Below are positions 44,761-53,587 of a DNA stretch of 64,000 nt, in pieces. The stretch is from positions 55,100-119,099 of the forward strand of contig JAFQSX010000005.1 in the NCBI GenBank assembly GCA_017409345.1, given 5' to 3'. Every line of letters begins with the position of its first letter. Position 1 is the first letter of the stretch. The notes beneath the pieces were generated by a model. The model did not search any database. It saw only the letters and a program-made list of their open reading frames with translations, and was not told where the DNA came from. The stretch is from Muribaculaceae bacterium (lineage in GTDB: Bacteria; Bacteroidota; Bacteroidia; Bacteroidales; Muribaculaceae). Both the position numbers and the translations under genes were made by a program.

Positions 44761-46767
44761 TTAAAGTTCAACAACAAGGCCGAATCGGTAATTGCGTTTT
44801 GGCATAGGGTAGTTCAAAATCACATCATAATCTTGTGAAAATAGGTTGTTTACCTCTGCAGTTGCTTTGAAATCTACTTTGCCTATTTTAAATGATTTCA
44901 TTAGAGAAATGTCGCTTGTGTACCAAGGTTGGGTGTGATTGTAACGAATGTTTTCTTGTTGGTTATAGCGTTCACCGGTGTAAATGAAACTATAATTCAA
45001 GTGCCAACCTTTCCAATCGAGCATGAGAATAGCCGAACCACTATGCCAAGGGATATAGGGTATTTGGTGTCGATAATAGTTATCGGCAGGGTTTGTCACA
45101 TCAATAGCTTCTTGATAAGTATATTGGAATTTTGCAGTGAAATCAATGTCGCAAGGCAACCCAAAAGTGCCACCTATTTGAGCGTCAATACCTTTAATCT
45201 CAACTTTGCCGAGATTGAGCATTGTCCAACGGAATTGTTGCCCTTTGGGATATGCTACAATCTTGTCTTTTACGTCGTTATAGTATATGTCGGTTCCAAC
45301 TTTGAAGTATTTGAACCAACTTTTTTCTCTAACTATATCATATAATACTCCCACATTATATTGTATTGCAGTTTCGGGCTTAAGATAAGCATTGCCCATA
45401 TCGGTATAATATAGGTCGTTAAAAGTAGGCATGCGATAACTGTGTTTGTAAAATGCTCTTATGACAAAGTTAGGGCGTTTAAAAGGTTTGTATGAAGCAA
45501 ATATGCCTGGAGTGATTTTGAATTTATCAGGAGCTTCATCGCGATCTCGTTGTTCTTCATTTACATATGTTATCAATCCCGATGCTTGCAATTTGAAACA
45601 GTCCCACAATGATAGTGCTGTAGCCAATGATGCCCAATGGGTAGTGCGGTCGACATCCATATATTCCGACAATCCATTCCATTGAAAATCATATGCTAAC
45701 GATAAATCCCAATTTGGTAAAATCCTATATCTGTTTGCCCAAGATAGATACACCTCTCTTTGCTTATATATGTTGTCGACATGAATAAGTTTGTCATCGT
45801 TATTTACATATCTTGTGTAGTCAAAAGCATATTTGGCGTTTATTTTTGAACTGAATTTATGAGTAAAATTATATTCAAACATTCCTTGAGCAAAGGAGTT
45901 GCGGTCCCAAAGCCTTTCACCGCGTCGCCATACATTGTTTACGATAGCACCAGGCACTCCTCGTTCAGAATTGTAGTGATATAGATATACTTTCCATCGA
46001 CCTTTGGGTAGAAAACCATGTAATCCACCCTCAAGACGTACAGCATCAATATCTCCATTCTCACGAACGGCTGTAGTGTCGTAGGCGAGTTCGCCCGATG
46101 GAGTTACACGACGATAACGAAATTTGTATTTGCCCGACGAACTAACCCACTCGGTGTTAAAACTCATGCTTATGGTTTCATTGAGTTTGTGGTCAAAAGT
46201 AAGTGACGGGTTGAAAAGGTCGAATGAGCCAGCTCGCAATCCCACTCGTAAGTGGCTCGTTTCACTCTCTTTAAATTTGGGAAATCGAGTGTTGAGGTAT
46301 ATTGACCCAGCTGAACCAAATTCGCGTGCTGATTGGAAAATTTCGCTCTTTTGACCATTATATAGCGATACTGATTCGATATTTTCAAGTGAATATTTTC
46401 CAAGGTCTACTTGACCATTTTGTGCATTACCTAACTCGATGCCATTGTAATATACACCCATATGGTTTGTACCCATTGAACGTATATTGACTGTTTTAAT
46501 GCCACCAACGCCTCCATAGTCCTTGAGTTGTACTCCCGAAAAATACCTTAAAGCATCGGCTACACTATGAGAACGCAATGCTTCTAATTCTTGTCCACCT
46601 AATGTTTGTGCTGGAATGACCTCCTTGTAGGATTGTGCAGTGACTATGACCTCATTGAGAAGTGTGCTGTCGAGGGGTGAATATTCATCATCTGTAGGTG
46701 ATGTGGCTGAAACTGAATGTGCTAGCAAAAGAAAAATGAATGAGCCTGTAAAAATGCGTCTTACCAT
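44761..46767 (-). CDS. btuB: BtuB-like TonB-dependent cobalamin receptor
   Basis: 668 residues. Signal peptide ending SVSA, then a TonB-box-like LLNEVIVTAQ (about 35-44), a plug domain (about 45-165; ALRYFSGVQLKDYGGVGGIKTVNIRSMGTN with the usual MGVYYNGI) and a 22-strand barrel ending in RNYRFGLVVEL. There is no carboxypeptidase-like extension, as is usual for cobalamin and siderophore receptors rather than SusC. First gene after the cobalamin riboswitch, so it is repressed when B12 is plentiful. Confidence 0.92.
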   Translation of the reverse strand: MVRRIFTGSFIFLLLAHSVSATSPTDDEYSPLDSTLLNEVIVTAQSYKEVIPAQTLGGQELEALRSHSVADALRYFSGVQLKDYGGVGGIKTVNIRSMGTNHMGVYYNGIELGNAQNGQVDLGKYSLENIESVSLYNGQKSEIFQSAREFGSAGSIYLNTRFPKFKESETSHLRVGLRAGSFDLFNPSLTFDHKLNETISMSFNTEWVSSSGKYKFRYRRVTPSGELAYDTTAVRENGDIDAVRLEGGLHGFLPKGRWKVYLYHYNSERGVPGAIVNNVWRRGERLWDRNSFAQGMFEYNFTHKFSSKINAKYAFDYTRYVNNDDKLIHVDNIYKQREVYLSWANRYRILPNWDLSLAYDFQWNGLSEYMDVDRTTHWASLATALSLWDCFKLQASGLITYVNEEQRDRDEAPDKFKITPGIFASYKPFKRPNFVIRAFYKHSYRMPTFNDLYYTDMGNAYLKPETAIQYNVGVLYDIVREKSWFKYFKVGTDIYYNDVKDKIVAYPKGQQFRWTMLNLGKVEIKGIDAQIGGTFGLPCDIDFTAKFQYTYQEAIDVTNPADNYYRHQIPYIPWHSGSAILMLDWKGWHLNYSFIYTGERYNQQENIRYNHTQPWYTSDISLMKSFKIGKVDFKATAEVNNLFSQDYDVILNYPMPKRNYRFGLVVEL

Positions 46768-46926: not shown

Positions 46927-46948
46927 ACCTCGTAAGCTATTGAAATAA

Positions 46949-47133
46949 ATGTAGTGGCAGGTCTTCTGACTCGTTTCCTCATCCCGACGCCTTCCCAAGG
47001 ACTTTCGCCTCAGTGGCAGGTTTTGAATGTCGGTGAGTGATAATGAAACTCACAGCAGCGGGGACTGTCCAGGATTTACACCTGATTCCCTATTAAGTGG
47101 AGTGACCCGGTTGGGTATCCACACCATTACATT
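46949..47133 (-). ncRNA. Cobalamin (B12) riboswitch
   Basis: Read on the minus strand, the conserved segments appear in order: GGGAATCAGGTG, AATCCTGGACAGTCCCCGCTGCTGTGA, GCCACTGAGGCG, TGGGAAGGC and the B12 box GTCAGAAGACCTGCC (about 46957-46971). The closing stem P1 is AATGTAATGG with CCACTACATT (one mismatch), starting at the predicted transcription start. About 180 bases separate it from the btuB start codon. It switches the five-gene B12 uptake operon off when cobalamin binds. Confidence 0.96.
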
Positions 47134-47135
47134 GA

Positions 47136-47167
47136 CAAAGGTAGATGTTATAAATTAATTAACCAAA
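47136..47167 (-). promoter_or_regulatory. Promoter of the B12 uptake operon
   Basis: On the minus strand TTTG (47167-47164), 20-base spacer, TACCTTTG (47143-47136): both elements are perfect. Transcription would start within a few bases of the riboswitch P1 strand. Confidence 0.75.
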
Positions 47168-47255: not shown

Positions 47256-48299
47256 TTAGTTGTTTTCGGGACGAAGTTTGCGAACAGTAACTGCTGCTTG
47301 CCACATTTCGCTTTCACGAAGAGCCTTGAGTTCTTCTTCGAGTTTTTCGCGATAGTCGGGTTGAGAGTTGCTGTCGATTGAGATTTGAGCTTCGTTACCT
47401 GATTTTACACTTGCATAAAGTTTTTCAACAACAGGCTTGATTGCATCGTGGAATGGGCCCATCCAGTCAAGAGCACCACGTTGAGCGGTAGTAGAGCAGT
47501 TAGCATACATCCAGTCCATACCGTTTTTAGCGAAGAGAGGCATCAATGATTGAGTCAATTCTTCAACTGTTTCGTTGAATGCTTCAGAAGGAGTGTGACC
47601 GTTTTCACGGAGTACTTCGTATTGAGCGAGCAACAAACCTTGGATAGCACCCATCAATGAACCACGTTCACCAGTGAGGTCAGAAGTTGCTTCACGTTCG
47701 ATAGTAGTTTCGAAGAGGTAACCTGAACCGATACCGATACCGAGTGCAAGAGCACGATCAGTTGCACGACCTGTAACATCTTGAGATACTGCGTATGAAG
47801 AGTTCAAACCACGACCTTCGAGGAACATAGTACGCAATGATGTACCTGAACCTTTAGGAGCAACGAGGATAACGTCAACATCAGCAGGAGGAACTACGCC
47901 TGTGCGGTCGCTCCATGTGAGTGCGAAACCATGAGAGAAGTAAAGCGCTTTGCCTGGAGTAAGATATTGTTTGATAGTAGGCCATACCGACATAACTGCA
48001 GCGTCAGAAAGAAGACACATGATGATAGTACCTTTTTCGCATGCTTCTTCGATGCTGAAAAGTGTTTCGCCGGGAACCCAACCGTCGTTGATTGCTTTTT
48101 CAAATGTTTTACCTTGACGTTGACCAACGATTACATTGAAACCATTGTCACGAAGGTTCATACTTTGACCGGGGCCTTGAACACCATAACCGATCACTGC
48201 TATAGTTTCATCTTTTAAGATTTCACGAGCCTTTTCCAAAGGAAATTCTTCGCGGAGGATTACATTTTCTTCAACTCCGCCAAAATTCATTTTTGCCAT
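47256..48299 (-). CDS. ilvC: Ketol-acid reductoisomerase
   Basis: 347 residues, class I. NAD(P)-binding GYGVQGPGQSMNLRDNGF with the following VGQRQGKTFEKA, where Arg and Lys suggest NADPH use. Metal and substrate residues are in DLTGERGSLMGAIQGLL and in FNETVEELTQSL. It converts acetolactate to dihydroxyisovalerate (or the Ile-branch equivalent). Last gene of the ilv operon, 91 bases after the thioesterase, with a -7 element of its own in that gap. Confidence 0.96.
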   Translation of the reverse strand: MAKMNFGGVEENVILREEFPLEKAREILKDETIAVIGYGVQGPGQSMNLRDNGFNVIVGQRQGKTFEKAINDGWVPGETLFSIEEACEKGTIIMCLLSDAAVMSVWPTIKQYLTPGKALYFSHGFALTWSDRTGVVPPADVDVILVAPKGSGTSLRTMFLEGRGLNSSYAVSQDVTGRATDRALALGIGIGSGYLFETTIEREATSDLTGERGSLMGAIQGLLLAQYEVLRENGHTPSEAFNETVEELTQSLMPLFAKNGMDWMYANCSTTAQRGALDWMGPFHDAIKPVVEKLYASVKSGNEAQISIDSNSQPDYREKLEEELKALRESEMWQAAVTVRKLRPENN

Positions 48300-48390: not shown

Positions 48391-49134
48391 TCAATTTTTA
48401 TTTTTAAACTCTATTTTTGCTCTACAAGATGCATTTTCGCCAACACAAATCTCAGCTTCGGCAATATTTTCTGTGATTTTAGTTTTTATCACGGCATTAT
48501 CGCCAAAGTGTGTCTCGTGAAGATATTGAATTTCAAAACGACTGATTTCGTTGTTGTCAAAATACTCTAAATCCCATTGGTCAAGAATTGCATCCATGTA
48601 TCTCACACTATTTACATGGCGATTGAAATCAATGTCGCTTACTTTAAATTGATGTTGTGTAGTCATTGTTGCTTCCTCATCTTTAACTGCCATCAATCTA
48701 CTTTGTTTTGCAATGGGGCAAGAGCGGTCGTTTATTGTTTCGGCAAGCCATGAAATGCTTGACAAGTCAGAAGGACGGCGTGTATCCATGTCAATGGCTA
48801 CCCATATTGTGCGCACATATCCTATTGTTTCGCCATTGCCGTCTTGGATTTCCATATTTCGTTCAGAATATAGGCGATTGAAACCTTCAATCCAAGTAGT
48901 GAGGCTGTATTCCTCGTTTACTCCGGGATAGCGAGTCATTTCGATTGACATGCGGCTCAATACCCAACCTGAGTTGAACTTAATCATGTCGCTATACCCA
49001 ACACCTAGGATATTGGCATGTTCGGTAGCAATCTCTATCACGCGTTGAGCAATGAGAGTGATAGGCATTTGGCGCTGAGCATTGCATTCGCCTGCGGTGA
49101 GAAAATGTTTATGAGTGTGTTCTTTAGGTCTCAT
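48391..49134 (-). CDS. Acyl-ACP thioesterase
   Basis: 247 residues, double hot-dog fold of the acyl-ACP thioesterase family (FatA/FatB-like). N-terminal half: VGYSDMIKFNSGWVLSRMSIEM and TTWIEGFNRLYSERN; C-terminal half: the conserved DIDFNRHVNSVRYMDAILD with Asp, Asn and His active residues. It releases fatty acids from ACP. It lies 10 bases after ilvN and before ilvC, so it is in the branched-chain amino acid operon; a link to branched-chain fatty acid supply is inference. Confidence 0.9.
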   Translation of the reverse strand: MRPKEHTHKHFLTAGECNAQRQMPITLIAQRVIEIATEHANILGVGYSDMIKFNSGWVLSRMSIEMTRYPGVNEEYSLTTWIEGFNRLYSERNMEIQDGNGETIGYVRTIWVAIDMDTRRPSDLSSISWLAETINDRSCPIAKQSRLMAVKDEEATMTTQHQFKVSDIDFNRHVNSVRYMDAILDQWDLEYFDNNEISRFEIQYLHETHFGDNAVIKTKITENIAEAEICVGENASCRAKIEFKNKN

Positions 49135-49144
49135 ATAAAAAATC

Positions 49145-49693
49145 TTAAATTAACCCTTCGGCACGGCGGCGGGCTTGCTCTTCAAGGAACATTGTTACAT
49201 ATTCTTGAGTTGATTTCGTGATTGCAACACGACCGCTACGCACAAATTGACGAATGTCATAGTTTTTCAACTCTTCAAATAGTGCTTCAGTTTCATCATT
49301 ATGCCCCGATTTCTCAATTACGGTATATTCTTTGGTGATTTCAAGAATTCGTGCATTGTGACGACGAATGATTCCTTCAAGGTTCTTTTCGTTGAGAAGT
49401 TGCTCGGTAGGTACTTTGTATAGTGCAATTTCTTGATACACAATCTCGTCATCAGTGTAAAGGAATGATTTCAACACATCGATGCGTTTCTCGATTTGTT
49501 TTACTACTTTTTCCATTGTCACACGATCACTCCAAGTTGTGATTGTAAATTTGTGGATACCTTCTATAGAAGAAGGGCTCACCGAAAGACTCTCGATGTT
49601 GAGACAACGGCGAGTATATATGATTGAAATCTGGTTGAGCAACCCAACTTGATTTTCGGAGAATACGGTAACTGTAAATAATTGTTTTTCCAT
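49145..49693 (-). CDS. ilvN: Acetolactate synthase small (regulatory) subunit
   Basis: 182 residues. N-terminal ACT domain (about 5-75: FTVTVFSENQVGLLNQISIIYTRR, RCLNIESLSVSPS) that binds valine for feedback inhibition, and the ALS_ss_C domain (about 90-165). It lies 15 bases after the large subunit. It activates the catalytic subunit and confers valine sensitivity. Also called ilvH in some nomenclature. Confidence 0.93.
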   Translation of the reverse strand: MEKQLFTVTVFSENQVGLLNQISIIYTRRCLNIESLSVSPSSIEGIHKFTITTWSDRVTMEKVVKQIEKRIDVLKSFLYTDDEIVYQEIALYKVPTEQLLNEKNLEGIIRRHNARILEITKEYTVIEKSGHNDETEALFEELKNYDIRQFVRSGRVAITKSTQEYVTMFLEEQARRRAEGLI

Positions 49694-49708: not shown

Positions 49709-51424
49709 TTAATTGATTTGAAACTTCTCATTTGCGTTGAGCATAATATCATCAACGGCCGCTCCGGCAGGAGTCATTGGGAATATCATGTCGGTGGGGT
49801 CGATGTTCACGTTGAGCATATATGCTCCTTTGTGGTTGAGCATACGTGCAATAGCATCATCAAGTTGTTCGCGAGTCTCAACATTTTCAGCAGCAATGCC
49901 ATAAGCATTGGCAATTGCTACGAAATCGGGGTTTACCATTGGAGTTTGTGAGAAACGGCTATTAAAGAAAAGTTCTTGCCATTGACGCACATTGCCAAGG
50001 AAATTATTATTGAGAAGTATGATTTTTACATCGGTACCATATTCCATGATGGTTCCGAGTTCTTGGATAGTCATTTGTAATCCACCATCACCGGTGAAGA
50101 AGCATACAGTGCGCTCGGGTGCTCCCATTTTTGCTCCTATAGAGGCAGGTAGCCCAAATCCCATAGTCCCGAGTCCTCCTGAGGTGAGAATGCTCTTAGG
50201 GTCGGTGTAACGGAAATAGCGTGACGAGAACATTTGATTTTGTCCCACATCTGTTACTAATACGGCTTTATCGCCGGTGGCTTTTGATACTTTATGTGCC
50301 ACTTCGCCCATTGTCATAGTGCCTTCGGTGCGGAATACCTCGCGTTCGATAACTTTTTCGCGTTCCACTTTGGCACATTCGTCAAATGTCTTGAGCCATT
50401 CGCTGTGTTCGGCAGGGTTGATGAGTGGCAGAAGTTTCTCAAGCACTTCGCGAGCATCGCCATGAATTGTGGCATCGGTTTTGATATTTTTATCAAATTC
50501 CGATGAGTCGATGTCAATATGTACTATTTTGGCTTGAGGAGCATATTTTGAAGTGTCACCGGTTACACGGTCATCAAAACGCATACCTATCGCAATAATC
50601 ACGTCACTGCGGTTGGTGTTTATGTTAGGCCCTATATTGCCATGCATACCGAGCATGCCTTTATATAGACGGTGGTCGCTTGGCATGGTTGAAAGTCCGA
50701 GAAGTGTTGCTGTTACCGGAATGTCGGCTTTTTCAGCAAAAGCGGCAAGCTCTTTTTCTGCCCCTGAAATCATCACACCATGTCCCGAAAGGATCATAGG
50801 ACGTTTTGCGGCATTGATAATATCGGCAGCGGCCTTTAAATCCTCATCGTTGATTTTGGGGTAGGGGATATAACTACGTATATATGTGCATTTTTGGTGA
50901 CTCCATTCGAGTAACCCGTTTTGAGCATCTTTGGCGATGTCAAGCACTACCGGGCCGGGCCGACCGGTGTTGGCTATATAGAATGCACGAGCCACAGCCC
51001 AAGGAATATCTTCGGCACGACGAATTTGATAGGCCCATTTTGTGATTGGTTGAGTAATGCCCACCACGTCGGTTTCTTGGAATGCATCGCTACCAAGGAA
51101 TGAAGAGGCAACTTGACCGGTTATTACTACCAATGGAGTGCTATCCATCAATGCGTCACTTAATCCTGTGATTACATTTGTTGCAGCCGGACCCGAAGTT
51201 ACGATAACAACACCGGGACGACCGGTTACGCGAGCATAACCTTGTGCGGCATGTGTAGCACCTTGTTCATGGCGAACGAGTATATGTTTTAATTGATCGG
51301 TATAATCATATAGTTTATCATATACCGGAATGATTGCTCCACCGGGATAACCGAATACGAGATTTACTCCCTCTGCAATCAATGACTTAATTAAAGCCTC
51401 GGCGCCAGTTATTCTCTCATTCAT
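49709..51424 (-). CDS. ilvB: Acetolactate synthase large (catalytic) subunit
   Basis: 571 residues. ThDP enzyme with the catalytic Glu in VRHEQGATHAAQGYAR, FAD/central domain with IGMRFDDRVTGD, and the ThDP motif GDGGLQMTIQELGT followed by NNNFLGNVRQWQELFF. It condenses two pyruvates, or pyruvate and 2-oxobutyrate. It is separated from ilvD by 75 bases containing a triple 14-bp repeat. Confidence 0.96.
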   Translation of the reverse strand: MNERITGAEALIKSLIAEGVNLVFGYPGGAIIPVYDKLYDYTDQLKHILVRHEQGATHAAQGYARVTGRPGVVIVTSGPAATNVITGLSDALMDSTPLVVITGQVASSFLGSDAFQETDVVGITQPITKWAYQIRRAEDIPWAVARAFYIANTGRPGPVVLDIAKDAQNGLLEWSHQKCTYIRSYIPYPKINDEDLKAAADIINAAKRPMILSGHGVMISGAEKELAAFAEKADIPVTATLLGLSTMPSDHRLYKGMLGMHGNIGPNINTNRSDVIIAIGMRFDDRVTGDTSKYAPQAKIVHIDIDSSEFDKNIKTDATIHGDAREVLEKLLPLINPAEHSEWLKTFDECAKVEREKVIEREVFRTEGTMTMGEVAHKVSKATGDKAVLVTDVGQNQMFSSRYFRYTDPKSILTSGGLGTMGFGLPASIGAKMGAPERTVCFFTGDGGLQMTIQELGTIMEYGTDVKIILLNNNFLGNVRQWQELFFNSRFSQTPMVNPDFVAIANAYGIAAENVETREQLDDAIARMLNHKGAYMLNVNIDPTDMIFPMTPAGAAVDDIMLNANEKFQIN

Positions 51425-51499: not shown

Positions 51500-53323
51500 T
51501 TATTCTCTCACTCCGCCTTTGTCGGCCGATGTAACCATTGACGCATAAGCGCGCAAGGCTTTTGAAATCACACGGTCACGATTGCGAGGAGTGAATGCTT
51601 CTTTACCGCGAGCCTCTTCTTCTTTGCGACGATTGGCCATCTCTTCATCACTGATTTCTACACTGATAGTGCGTTGAGGAATGTTGATATCAATGATGTC
51701 GCCATCGCGAACAAGTCCGATATTGCCACCTGCTGCTGCTTCGGGAGAAATGTGACCAATAGACAATCCTGATGTTCCGCCTGAGAAACGACCATCGGTA
51801 ATCAATGCGCACTCTTTACCCAAATGTTTGCTTTTGATATAACTTGTTGGGTATAGCATTTCTTGCATACCGGGACCACCTTTGGGACCTTCATGAGTGA
51901 TAACAACAATATCGCCTGATACAACTTTGTCACGAAGGATTCCTTCAACGGCATCTTCTTGTGATTCGAATACTTTTGCCGGACCACGGAAGTGGAAGAT
52001 GCTTTCATCAACACCTGCTGTTTTTACAACGCAACCATCAAGAGCGATGTTGCCACGCAACACAGCAAGGCCTCCATCTTTTACATAGGCATGTTCAAAG
52101 TCACGAATGCAACCTTTCTCACGGTCGGTGTCAAGAGTGTCGTAAGTGCAGTTCTGAGAGCCGAGAACGATATTTTTCTTTTCTCCGGGAGCACTTTTCC
52201 ACATTGCTTCGGCTTCTGCATCAAAATTTTTGCCACCGATAGCATATTTTTCAATAGCATCACCGAGAGTTAATCCATCAACTCGTTTGACCGAAGTGTC
52301 AACTATACCTTGTTCGGCAAGAACTTTCATAATTGAGATGATACCACCGGCACGGTTCACATCTTGAATGTGATATTTTGAGTTAGGTGCCACTTTGCAC
52401 AATACAGGAGTTTTGCGTGAAAGAGCATCAATATCGGCCATTGTGAAGTTGGCTTCAGCCTCATGAGCAATAGCAAGAAGGTGAAGAACTGTATTTGTAG
52501 AACCACCCATGGCAATATCAAGAGTCATGGCATTGAGCATGGCTTGACGAGTGGCGATGCTACGGGGTAACACGCTATCATCGTCATCATTGTAATATGC
52601 ATAGGTGTTTTTAACGATTTGTTGAGCCGCTTTTTTGAATAACTCTGTGCGATTGGCATGAGTTGCTACAATAGTTCCGTTTCCGGGAAGAGCCAATCCG
52701 ATTGCTTCGTTAAGAGAGTTCATAGAGTTGGCGGTAAACATGCCTGAACAAGAGCCACAAGTGGGGCAACCACATTGTTCAAGTTTGGTCACTGTTTCAT
52801 CATCAACACTTTCATCGGCAGCATCAATCATGATGTCGATTAGGTCAAGAGGACGATCTCCAAGACGACCGGCTTCCATAGGGCCTCCTGATACGAATAT
52901 TGCAGGGATGTTTAGTCGCATGGCAGCCATAAGCATACCGGGAGTTACTTTATCGCAGTTAGAGATACACACCATAGCGTCGGCCTTGTGTGCATTTACC
53001 ATATACTCAACCGAGTCAGCGATAAGATCGCGTGAGGGTAGAGAATATAACATGCCGTCGTGTCCCATTGCGATACCATCATCAATAGCGATGGTGTTAA
53101 ATTCGGCAGCAAAGCAACCAAGTTTTTCTATTTCGGCTTTTACTATTTGCCCTATTTCGTGGAGATGAGTGTGTCCGGGCACAAATTGTGTGAATGAATT
53201 GACGACAGCAATGATAGGCTTGCCTATTTGTTCTTCTTTCATTCCATTGGCACGCCATAGGGCTCGAGCCCCTGCCATTCTTCTTCCTTGTGTGCTTGCG
53301 GCACTTCTGAGTGGTTTACTCAT
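51500..53323 (-). CDS. ilvD: Dihydroxy-acid dehydratase
   Basis: 607 residues. The Fe-S cluster region has [19 protein letters not shown] (about 183-200) and [11 protein letters not shown]-terminal domain with [17 protein letters not shown]. It converts dihydroxyisovalerate to 2-oxoisovalerate. First gene of the operon behind a leader peptide and attenuator. The ATG at 53323 is preceded at 7 bases by GGAGGA, an unusually strong Shine-Dalgarno sequence for this phylum, which supports the start. Confidence 0.95.
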
Positions 53324-53336: not shown

Positions 53337-53351
53337 GTTTTTTTAACTGCA

Positions 53352-53390
53352 AAGCCTCCCGAGTGCGTTTAATGCATGGTGGGGAGGCTT
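53352..53390 (-). terminator. Attenuator hairpin in the ilv leader
   Basis: On the minus strand the 5' arm AAGCCTCCC (53390-53382) pairs perfectly with the 3' arm GGGAGGCTT (53360-53352), loop 21 bases. The T-run after it is poor (TGCAGTT), so it may stop transcription weakly or act on translation. The upstream GGGAGGG (53449-53443) can compete for the same CCTCCC. Confidence 0.7.
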
Positions 53391-53453
53391 CGTGTTATAT
53401 GTTTATTGTTTTATTTAATGTGTAATATATACAATCATTTTTCCCTCCCTTGA

Positions 53454-53498
53454 TTAAAGGACGTTGACGACGACCACTGATAGGTGCAGTTGAGTCAT
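53454..53498 (-). CDS. ilv operon leader peptide (Val/Leu-rich)
   Basis: A 14-codon ORF, MTQLHLSVVVVNVL, ATG at 53498 and TAA at 53456-53454. It has four consecutive Val codons (GTG GTC GTC GTC), a fifth Val and three Leu. It lies about 50 bases after a predicted transcription start and about 60 bases before the attenuator hairpin of the Val/Leu biosynthetic operon. Composition, length and place match leader peptides of ribosome-mediated attenuators such as the E. coli ilvB leader. GTC appears less used for Val in neighbouring genes than GTG, GTT or GTA (by eye). Confidence 0.82.
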   Translation of the reverse strand: MTQLHLSVVVVNVL

Positions 53499-53555
53499 TG
53501 TGAATACTGATTGCAAATATTGACGATTCATCTAACATTTTTGTTGAATTGGTTG

Positions 53556-53587
53556 CAAAATTATGCTTTTTAACAACAAAATGCAAA
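53556..53587 (-). promoter_or_regulatory. Promoter of the ilv operon
   Basis: On the minus strand TTTG (53587-53584), 20-base spacer, TAATTTTG (53563-53556). Predicted leader about 225 bases, with the leader peptide ATG some 50 bases from the start. Confidence 0.65.

Follow-up and report, generated by a model that had tools for sequence, protein, structure and literature searches.

The question raised by this locus is what controls the biosynthetic operon headed by ilvD in the window, by which we mean the whole 64,000-nucleotide stretch of DNA that was analysed. Between 53587 and 53323 on the minus strand, a promoter-like TTTG-N20-TAATTTTG is followed by a short ORF with four valine codons, by GGGAGGG and by a G+C-rich hairpin, and then by ilvD; ilvB, ilvN, a thioesterase gene and ilvC continue the row on the same strand. 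The features on which the argument depends are the following.

53556–53587, minus strand: candidate promoter TTTG-N20-TAATTTTG, found by pattern match
53454–53531, minus strand: predicted leader ORF of 25 codons plus stop, MNRQYLQSVFTMTQLHLSVVVVNVL, from an in-frame ATG at 53531, a start shared by locus L002
53508–53521, minus strand: segment 1, leader codons 4–8, complementary to 53437–53424 (folding and swap test)
53466–53477, minus strand: putative regulatory Val run GTG GTC GTC GTC, read from the sequence
53456–53454, minus strand: leader stop codon TAA
53443–53449, minus strand: segment 2, GGGAGGG, 5' arm of the antiterminator, pairing with CCTCCC of segment 3
53424–53437, minus strand: 3' partner of segment 1, shortly downstream of segment 2 (folding and swap test)
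53382–53392, minus strand: segment 3, the shared arm, CGAAGCCTCCC
53350–53360, minus strand: segment 4, GGGAGGCTTTG, 3' arm of the terminator-like hairpin; the bases that follow, CAGTTAAAAA, hold no T-run
53323, minus strand: ATG start codon of ilvD
51500–53323, minus strand: ilvD, dihydroxy-acid dehydratase, first gene of the operon (Pfam PF00920, PF24877)
49709–51424, minus strand: ilvB, acetolactate synthase large subunit, a TPP enzyme (Pfam TPP enzyme domains), so named because the gene adjoins ilvN
49145–49693, minus strand: ilvN, acetolactate synthase small subunit (Pfam PF10369, PF22629)
48391–49134, minus strand: acyl-ACP thioesterase, in the gene row (Pfam PF01643, PF20791)
47256–48299, minus strand: ilvC, ketol-acid reductoisomerase (Pfam PF07991, PF01450)

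Two further observations concern the layout. The acyl-ACP thioesterase gene intervenes between ilvN and ilvC, and a cobalamin riboswitch (RF00174, 114.5 bits, 46939–47143, minus strand) lies just 3' of ilvC, upstream of a TonB-dependent receptor gene at 44761–46767.

We propose that the ilvD-ilvB-ilvN-thioesterase-ilvC operon is controlled by a ribosome-mediated transcription attenuator of the trp/his/ilv kind, a reading to which we give a probability of about 85 %. We observed directly that the leader, its codon run and three helices recur, that paired bases covary over the order and that the helices switch in silico; from these we infer ribosome stalling, termination and a response to valine. 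When Val-tRNA is scarce, the ribosome would stall on the Val run and cover segment 1, leaving segment 2 free to pair with segment 3, so that the 3:4 helix could not form in time and the operon would be transcribed. With Val-tRNA plentiful, the ribosome would proceed to the stop codon and cover segment 2, and 3:4 would form and end transcription. If the leader were not translated at all, 1:2 would hide segment 2 and 3:4 would likewise form.

In the initial annotation of this DNA, the promoter was described as good. The sequence TTTG-N20-TAATTTTG does match the pattern, but the pattern occurs five times in the window when both strands are counted and is by itself weak evidence. The match fits the TAnnTTTG box named in PMC9723704, and TAnnTTTG and then CAA can be seen by eye upstream in all 11 readable loci of the genus. 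Transcription would be expected to start near 53550.

The elements that had been described downstream of the promoter were all found at their minus-strand positions, and only the distance between GGGAGGG and the stop codon had to be amended: the motif does lie at 53449–53443, but 4 nt past the stop and not directly after it. The leader had been taken to be a 14-codon peptide with four consecutive Val codons. The four codons are there (53477–53466), but comparison with a related sequence indicates that the start is probably upstream in frame at 53531, which would give 25 codons, as the L002 leader read from the same start, MNRQYLQHIINHSPLLNVVVVVGRL, contains no internal ATG or Met. The peptide read from the sequence of L003 is identical to that of the window. 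With a start at 53531, segment 1 falls inside the leader. The predicted ORF carries a run of codons for an end-product amino acid of the operon, as the leader of an attenuator does.

A Val-rich short ORF could also lie beside a hairpin by chance and have no regulatory role. Taken alone, the window leaves some room for this, as its ILV-rich mini-ORF reaches a p of only 0.025 in 200 dinucleotide shuffles; in the same test p was 0.055 for L002 and 0.075 for L005, and in L003 a different ORF scored top. However, an ATG-initiated mini-ORF with at least seven I/L/V in 10 residues is present in 104 sense but only 8 antisense regions of 199 loci (those of the 204 with at least 200 nt upstream), and this recurrence, together with the swap tests over the order described below, makes a chance origin hardly credible.

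The proposed pairing of GGGAGGG with CCTCCC was borne out, as the match between segments 2 and 3 in the window has a p of 0.003 against shuffles and the 2:3 helix was never equalled in 2000 permutations of the swap test. The 2:3 and 3:4 pairings of the initial annotation both stand, and are mutually exclusive with a common arm; a third helix, 1:2, had been missed, which overlaps the leader ORF (swap test 0/2000; folding 0.98). The set of 1:2, 2:3 and 3:4 is that of a trp/his-type attenuator.

For these tests, a loose criterion yielded 129 loci with leader and hairpin, 125 of them without near-duplicates, and 102 were kept, chosen by leader and hairpin strength alone. The stem was misplaced in L124 and L177, and in L080, L081, L104, L130 and some others an outer one was chosen; all of these stayed in the swap test of 102 loci, and L124 and L177 were skipped in the pooled folding. 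Ungapped 2:3 complementarity was significant at p ≤0.05 in 44 of the 125 loci and at ≤0.01 in 29. When region 2 was exchanged among the 102 loci, the own partner gave −13.32 versus −10.71 kcal/mol (sd 0.22) for 2:3 and −19.73 versus −15.99 kcal/mol (sd 0.33) for 1:2, with 0/2000 permutations reaching the own value in either case, the permutations leaving relatedness among loci in place. The own partner ranked in the best tenth at 31/102 loci for 2:3 and at 36/102 for 1:2, where about 10 would be expected, and mean pairing was weaker when region 2 was reversed or shuffled (−9.57 and −7.74 for 2:3; −14.75 and −14.86 for 1:2).

It had also been suggested that both helices should be checked for covariation, which we found for 3:4 and, over the order, for 2:3, but not for 2:3 within the close clade. 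An alignment of 15 sequences from the genus and near relatives gave ten 3:4 pairs that are 100 % paired, with double-sided change at five of the ten. The 2:3 helix is 89.9 % paired in the same alignment and shows no double-sided change there, and a control slid by +3 has a higher covariation score than the true register. In 28 sequences, part of 41 preselected for a significant 2:3 match, 2:3 is 94.4 % paired, and nine cells change on both sides where shuffles average 2.0, though the count of pairs changed in this way, three, is unremarkable (60/500 shuffles). Between clades the arms differ as a set, the window having GGGAGG/CCTCCC/GGGAGG and many order loci GAGAAAGG/CCTTTCTC/GAGAAAGG.

The logic of a ribosome that either stalls or reaches the stop codon, as put forward in the initial annotation, is reproduced in the window by constrained folding, in which the transcription start and the ribosome footprint were assumed. 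With the ribosome held on the Val run and segment 4 still to be transcribed, the model gives 2:3 a probability of 0.90; with the ribosome at the stop this falls to 0, and with no ribosome, again before segment 4, 1:2 is predicted at 0.98. Once segment 4 is present, 3:4 stands at 0.99 in all three folded states, including that with a stalled ribosome. Since 3:4 wins thermodynamically as soon as segment 4 exists, the switch must be kinetic.

Pooled over 100 of the 102 loci, upstream pairing of arm 3 was 0.71 with a stalled ribosome, 0.21 with the ribosome at the stop and 0.57 without a ribosome, the last only modestly under the stalled value. The stalled value was still 0.47 when region 2 was shuffled, and masking as such accounts for some of the fall at the stop. 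Pairing falls by more than 0.2 at the stop in 92 of the 100 loci and rises in one; the genus locus L009 goes the wrong way, with 0.20 stalled and 0.27 at the stop. Across the 43 loci with a significant 2:3 match, the end of the longest ILV run lies a median of 12 nt from segment 2 (interquartile range 11–16), which is about the reach of the leading edge of a ribosome. However, segment 2 also keeps a narrow range of distances from the end of the stop codon (median −2, interquartile range −4 to 3), so that the spacing does not single out the codon run.

Conservation in relatives, on which the initial annotation had made its reading depend, was found for the mini-ORF as well as for the pairing, both of which recur before ilvD across the Bacteroidales. 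We found ilvD in 12/12 genus, 87/148 family and 110/247 order genomes. By one automatic criterion, leader and hairpin are present ahead of ilvD in 10 of 11 readable genus loci (there are 12 upstream regions, and L004 is cut by a contig end), in 19 of 65 further family loci (17 further family matches were left out), in 38 of 47 further order loci (drawn from the higher places in the list and so biased to close relatives) and in 39 of 80 named loci (the best 80 of at least 596); the sets may overlap in species, and the automatic finder misses L083, where the leader is visible on inspection. Among the named loci are Bacteroides graminisolvens (L130), Phocaeicola faecalis (L132), a Tannerella (L133) and Alistipes (L194, L197), as well as Marinifilum (L186), Labilibaculum (L198) and Prolixibacteraceae (L170, L176), all carriers of the leader; the closest named relative, with 86 % in ilvD among the best 80 of at least 596, is Heminiphilus faecis, a hint that the window probably belongs to the Muribaculaceae. 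It seems that the leader switch is probably widespread in the Bacteroidales, as judged from sequence comparison.

The leader was not found in L010 of the genus nor in 46 of the 65 further family loci. Eight of ten loci with Prevotella or Prevotellaceae titles are without leader and hairpin, as are all 16 named loci with titles outside the Bacteroidota (among the best 80 of at least 596). In a sample from beyond the order, 20 of 88 other genomes with matches, a leader-like ORF with hairpin and T-run precedes ilvD in 3/20 upstream regions, and two of the 20 antisense regions reach the threshold of seven; the association of leader and ilvD looks patchy there. In L010, a promoter-like TAnnTTTG lies roughly 70–80 nt upstream of ilvD and there is no leader, which makes this locus a natural comparison for regulation.

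A structured leader before a biosynthetic operon might instead bind a protein or a ligand, as a riboswitch or T-box does, and contain an ORF by chance. At gathering scores, though, Rfam gives a single match in the whole window, RF00174 at 46939–47143, and the ILV run recurs along with its codon bias, so that we hold this alternative to be very improbable. A T-box or known riboswitch was set aside, as no Rfam match falls in the leader at gathering scores.

Of 11 hisG loci in the same genus (L205–L215), 10 have a His-run leader ahead of the gene, and 9 of the 11 show three adjacent His; two ORFs with HHH on the opposite strand of L214 give the background level. Several of these loci have a hairpin and a T-run downstream of the leader, and in the genome of the window itself the his leader (L209), MIFNATHHHYHHLAL, has a hairpin and seven T after it. 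It would be another attenuator of this genome, built much like that of ilvD.

The step that concerns the fate of the transcript deserves separate consideration. The distance from the hairpin to the ilvD ATG varies from 14 to 222 nt over the 102 loci, a variation which termination fits better than masking of the start codon. A translational attenuator, in which the hairpin would mask the ribosome-binding site or start, was set aside, as the hairpin ends 24–27 nt before the ATG in 9 genus loci and 14–222 nt before it over the 102 loci. Outside the genus of the window, 76 of the 93 other kept order loci have a T-run of at least four, as a U-run terminator would. The initial annotation named the weak T-run as its main caveat, and this caveat is real: the window hairpin is stable but has no T-run after it and was not called by the terminator scan, and the longest T-run at the hairpin end is at most three in 8/9 kept genus loci versus 17/93 others (Mann–Whitney p = 0.0005, with relatedness left in). 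The T count in an 8-nt tail of fixed length, which averages 3.7 in the genus and 4.8 in the other loci, understates U-runs because stems extend into them, and the longest T-run was therefore used instead. Without a U-run at the window hairpin, termination is the least certain step in this genus.

It is conceivable, though we think it unlikely, that ribosome sensing has been kept in the genus but its 3:4 hairpin has ceased to be a proper terminator and works in some other way, for example as a pause or roadblock, through a Rho-linked stop or by lowering ilvD translation. The difference in T-runs just described speaks for this, and the seven T after the his hairpin of the same genome mean that U-runs are available to the organism. 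A GGAGG before ilvD in L001–L005 could in addition serve as an alternative partner of CCTCC; however, it was not seen in L006, L008, L009, L011 or L012. Furthermore, the hairpin stays at about 10 bp, G+C-rich and covarying, its end at 24–27 nt before the ATG in 9 genus loci leaves the start itself uncovered, and L005, which belongs to the same genus, has five T. Attenuation by transcription termination remains the reading we prefer.

The codons of the leader runs are strongly biased. Counted over the longest ILV run of each of the 102 leaders, Val codons are GTC 183, GTG 129, GTA 16 and GTT 12, that is, shares of 0.54 for GUC and 0.38 for GUG with 28/340 for GUU and GUA together, versus 0.18 (GTC), 0.33 (GTG), 0.26 (GTA) and 0.22 (GTT), with 0.48 for GUU and GUA together, in the 76 matching ilvD genes. 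GTC makes up 0.65 (30/46) of the Val codons in genus leaders versus 0.07 in nine window genes. For Ile, the runs have ATT 92, ATC 20 and ATA 2 (AUU 0.81 versus 0.36 in ilvD), and for His, the his leaders have CAT 39 and CAC 8 (39/47, from related loci) versus a CAT share of 0.49 in nine window genes. From the decoding rules, we take these preferred codons for Val, Ile and His to be read by wobble.

UAC is the only tRNA-Val anticodon found among the tRNA genes (loci L236–L338) of two Bacteroidales genomes, G064 (2/55; 55 places, all read) and G374 (3/66; 66 genes from 67 Rfam places), and a tRNA-Val with GAC was not found in either among the scored candidates (150 of 160 and 150 of 214). Selective charging of isoacceptors (PMC1183508) was weighed as a reason for the codon bias, and cannot explain the bias of an amino acid with a single tRNA. 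For Leu the picture may be different: CTA has a share of 0.30 in the runs versus 0.03 in ilvD, and selective charging may fit here, but the share outside the run is just as high (0.29), and the codon may serve helix 1:2. Leader Ser, Thr and Ala codons shift too, those of Thr and Ala mostly to A/T in the third position, which confounds the ATT and CAT preferences and opposes the gain of GTC. Wobble reading is a lead and not a proof. We tentatively suggest that attenuators of the Bacteroidales might gain their sensitivity to starvation from wobble-read codons, not from starvation-sensitive isoacceptors, and that the genus of the window may in addition have replaced U-run termination, a combined idea that we rate as possible but doubtful.

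Leader-peptide attenuators of ilv, leu, his and trp operons are well known in Proteobacteria (ilvL, the ilvB leader, hisL and trpL). They share with the present locus a short leader ORF, runs of end-product codons, the 1:2/2:3/3:4 helices and a decision by ribosome position; the genus of the window differs in its dominant Val run, its Bacteroidota-type promoter and its weak U-run, and the likeness noted here is one of design. For amino acid operons of the Bacteroidetes/Chlorobi group, attenuators were reportedly listed by Vitreschak et al. in FEMS Microbiol Lett in 2004, which would mean that the same mechanism has already been predicted in the wider group. According to PMC2965389 (2010), leader-peptide systems were demonstrated in Proteobacteria and Actinobacteria but nowhere else until the Firmicutes case of that paper, a statement that agrees poorly with such a listing. 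In Flavobacterium psychrophilum, which belongs to the same phylum but another order, 'strong clues' for leader-peptide attenuation upstream of amino acid operons were described, with structured 5' elements named at pheA and hisG and 'ilv' absent from the main text (PMC9723704, 2021). Short ORFs in 5' UTRs of Bacteroides thetaiotaomicron, of the same order as the window, were said to be reminiscent of leader peptides, with BT_4401 as an example, and the main text again does not contain 'ilv' (PMC7366714). The Corynebacterium ilvBNC attenuator likewise has a leader ORF before an acetolactate synthase operon, but in Actinobacteria and with another gene order (PMC11857589, PMC10272879). The view that such attenuation is little described in the Bacteroidota needs to be qualified accordingly, since earlier reports exist (PMC9723704); on the ilvD leader, no paper was found among the matches listed. 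The kind of attenuator is already known, with Bacteroidota cases in print. Judged by titles and abstract openings, none of the matches listed is a paper on the Bacteroidales ilvD leader, its 1:2 helix or its codon pattern.

Attenuation of the trp type requires that ribosomes follow RNA polymerase closely or that the polymerase waits for them. If the order-wide set of leaders is true, it would amount to genetic evidence for a coordinated timing of transcription and translation in the Bacteroidales; on such coupling, no paper devoted to Bacteroidota was found among the matches listed. The leaders would also serve as ready-made reporters for valine and histidine, and their codon bias would be a test of why attenuators pick particular synonymous codons.
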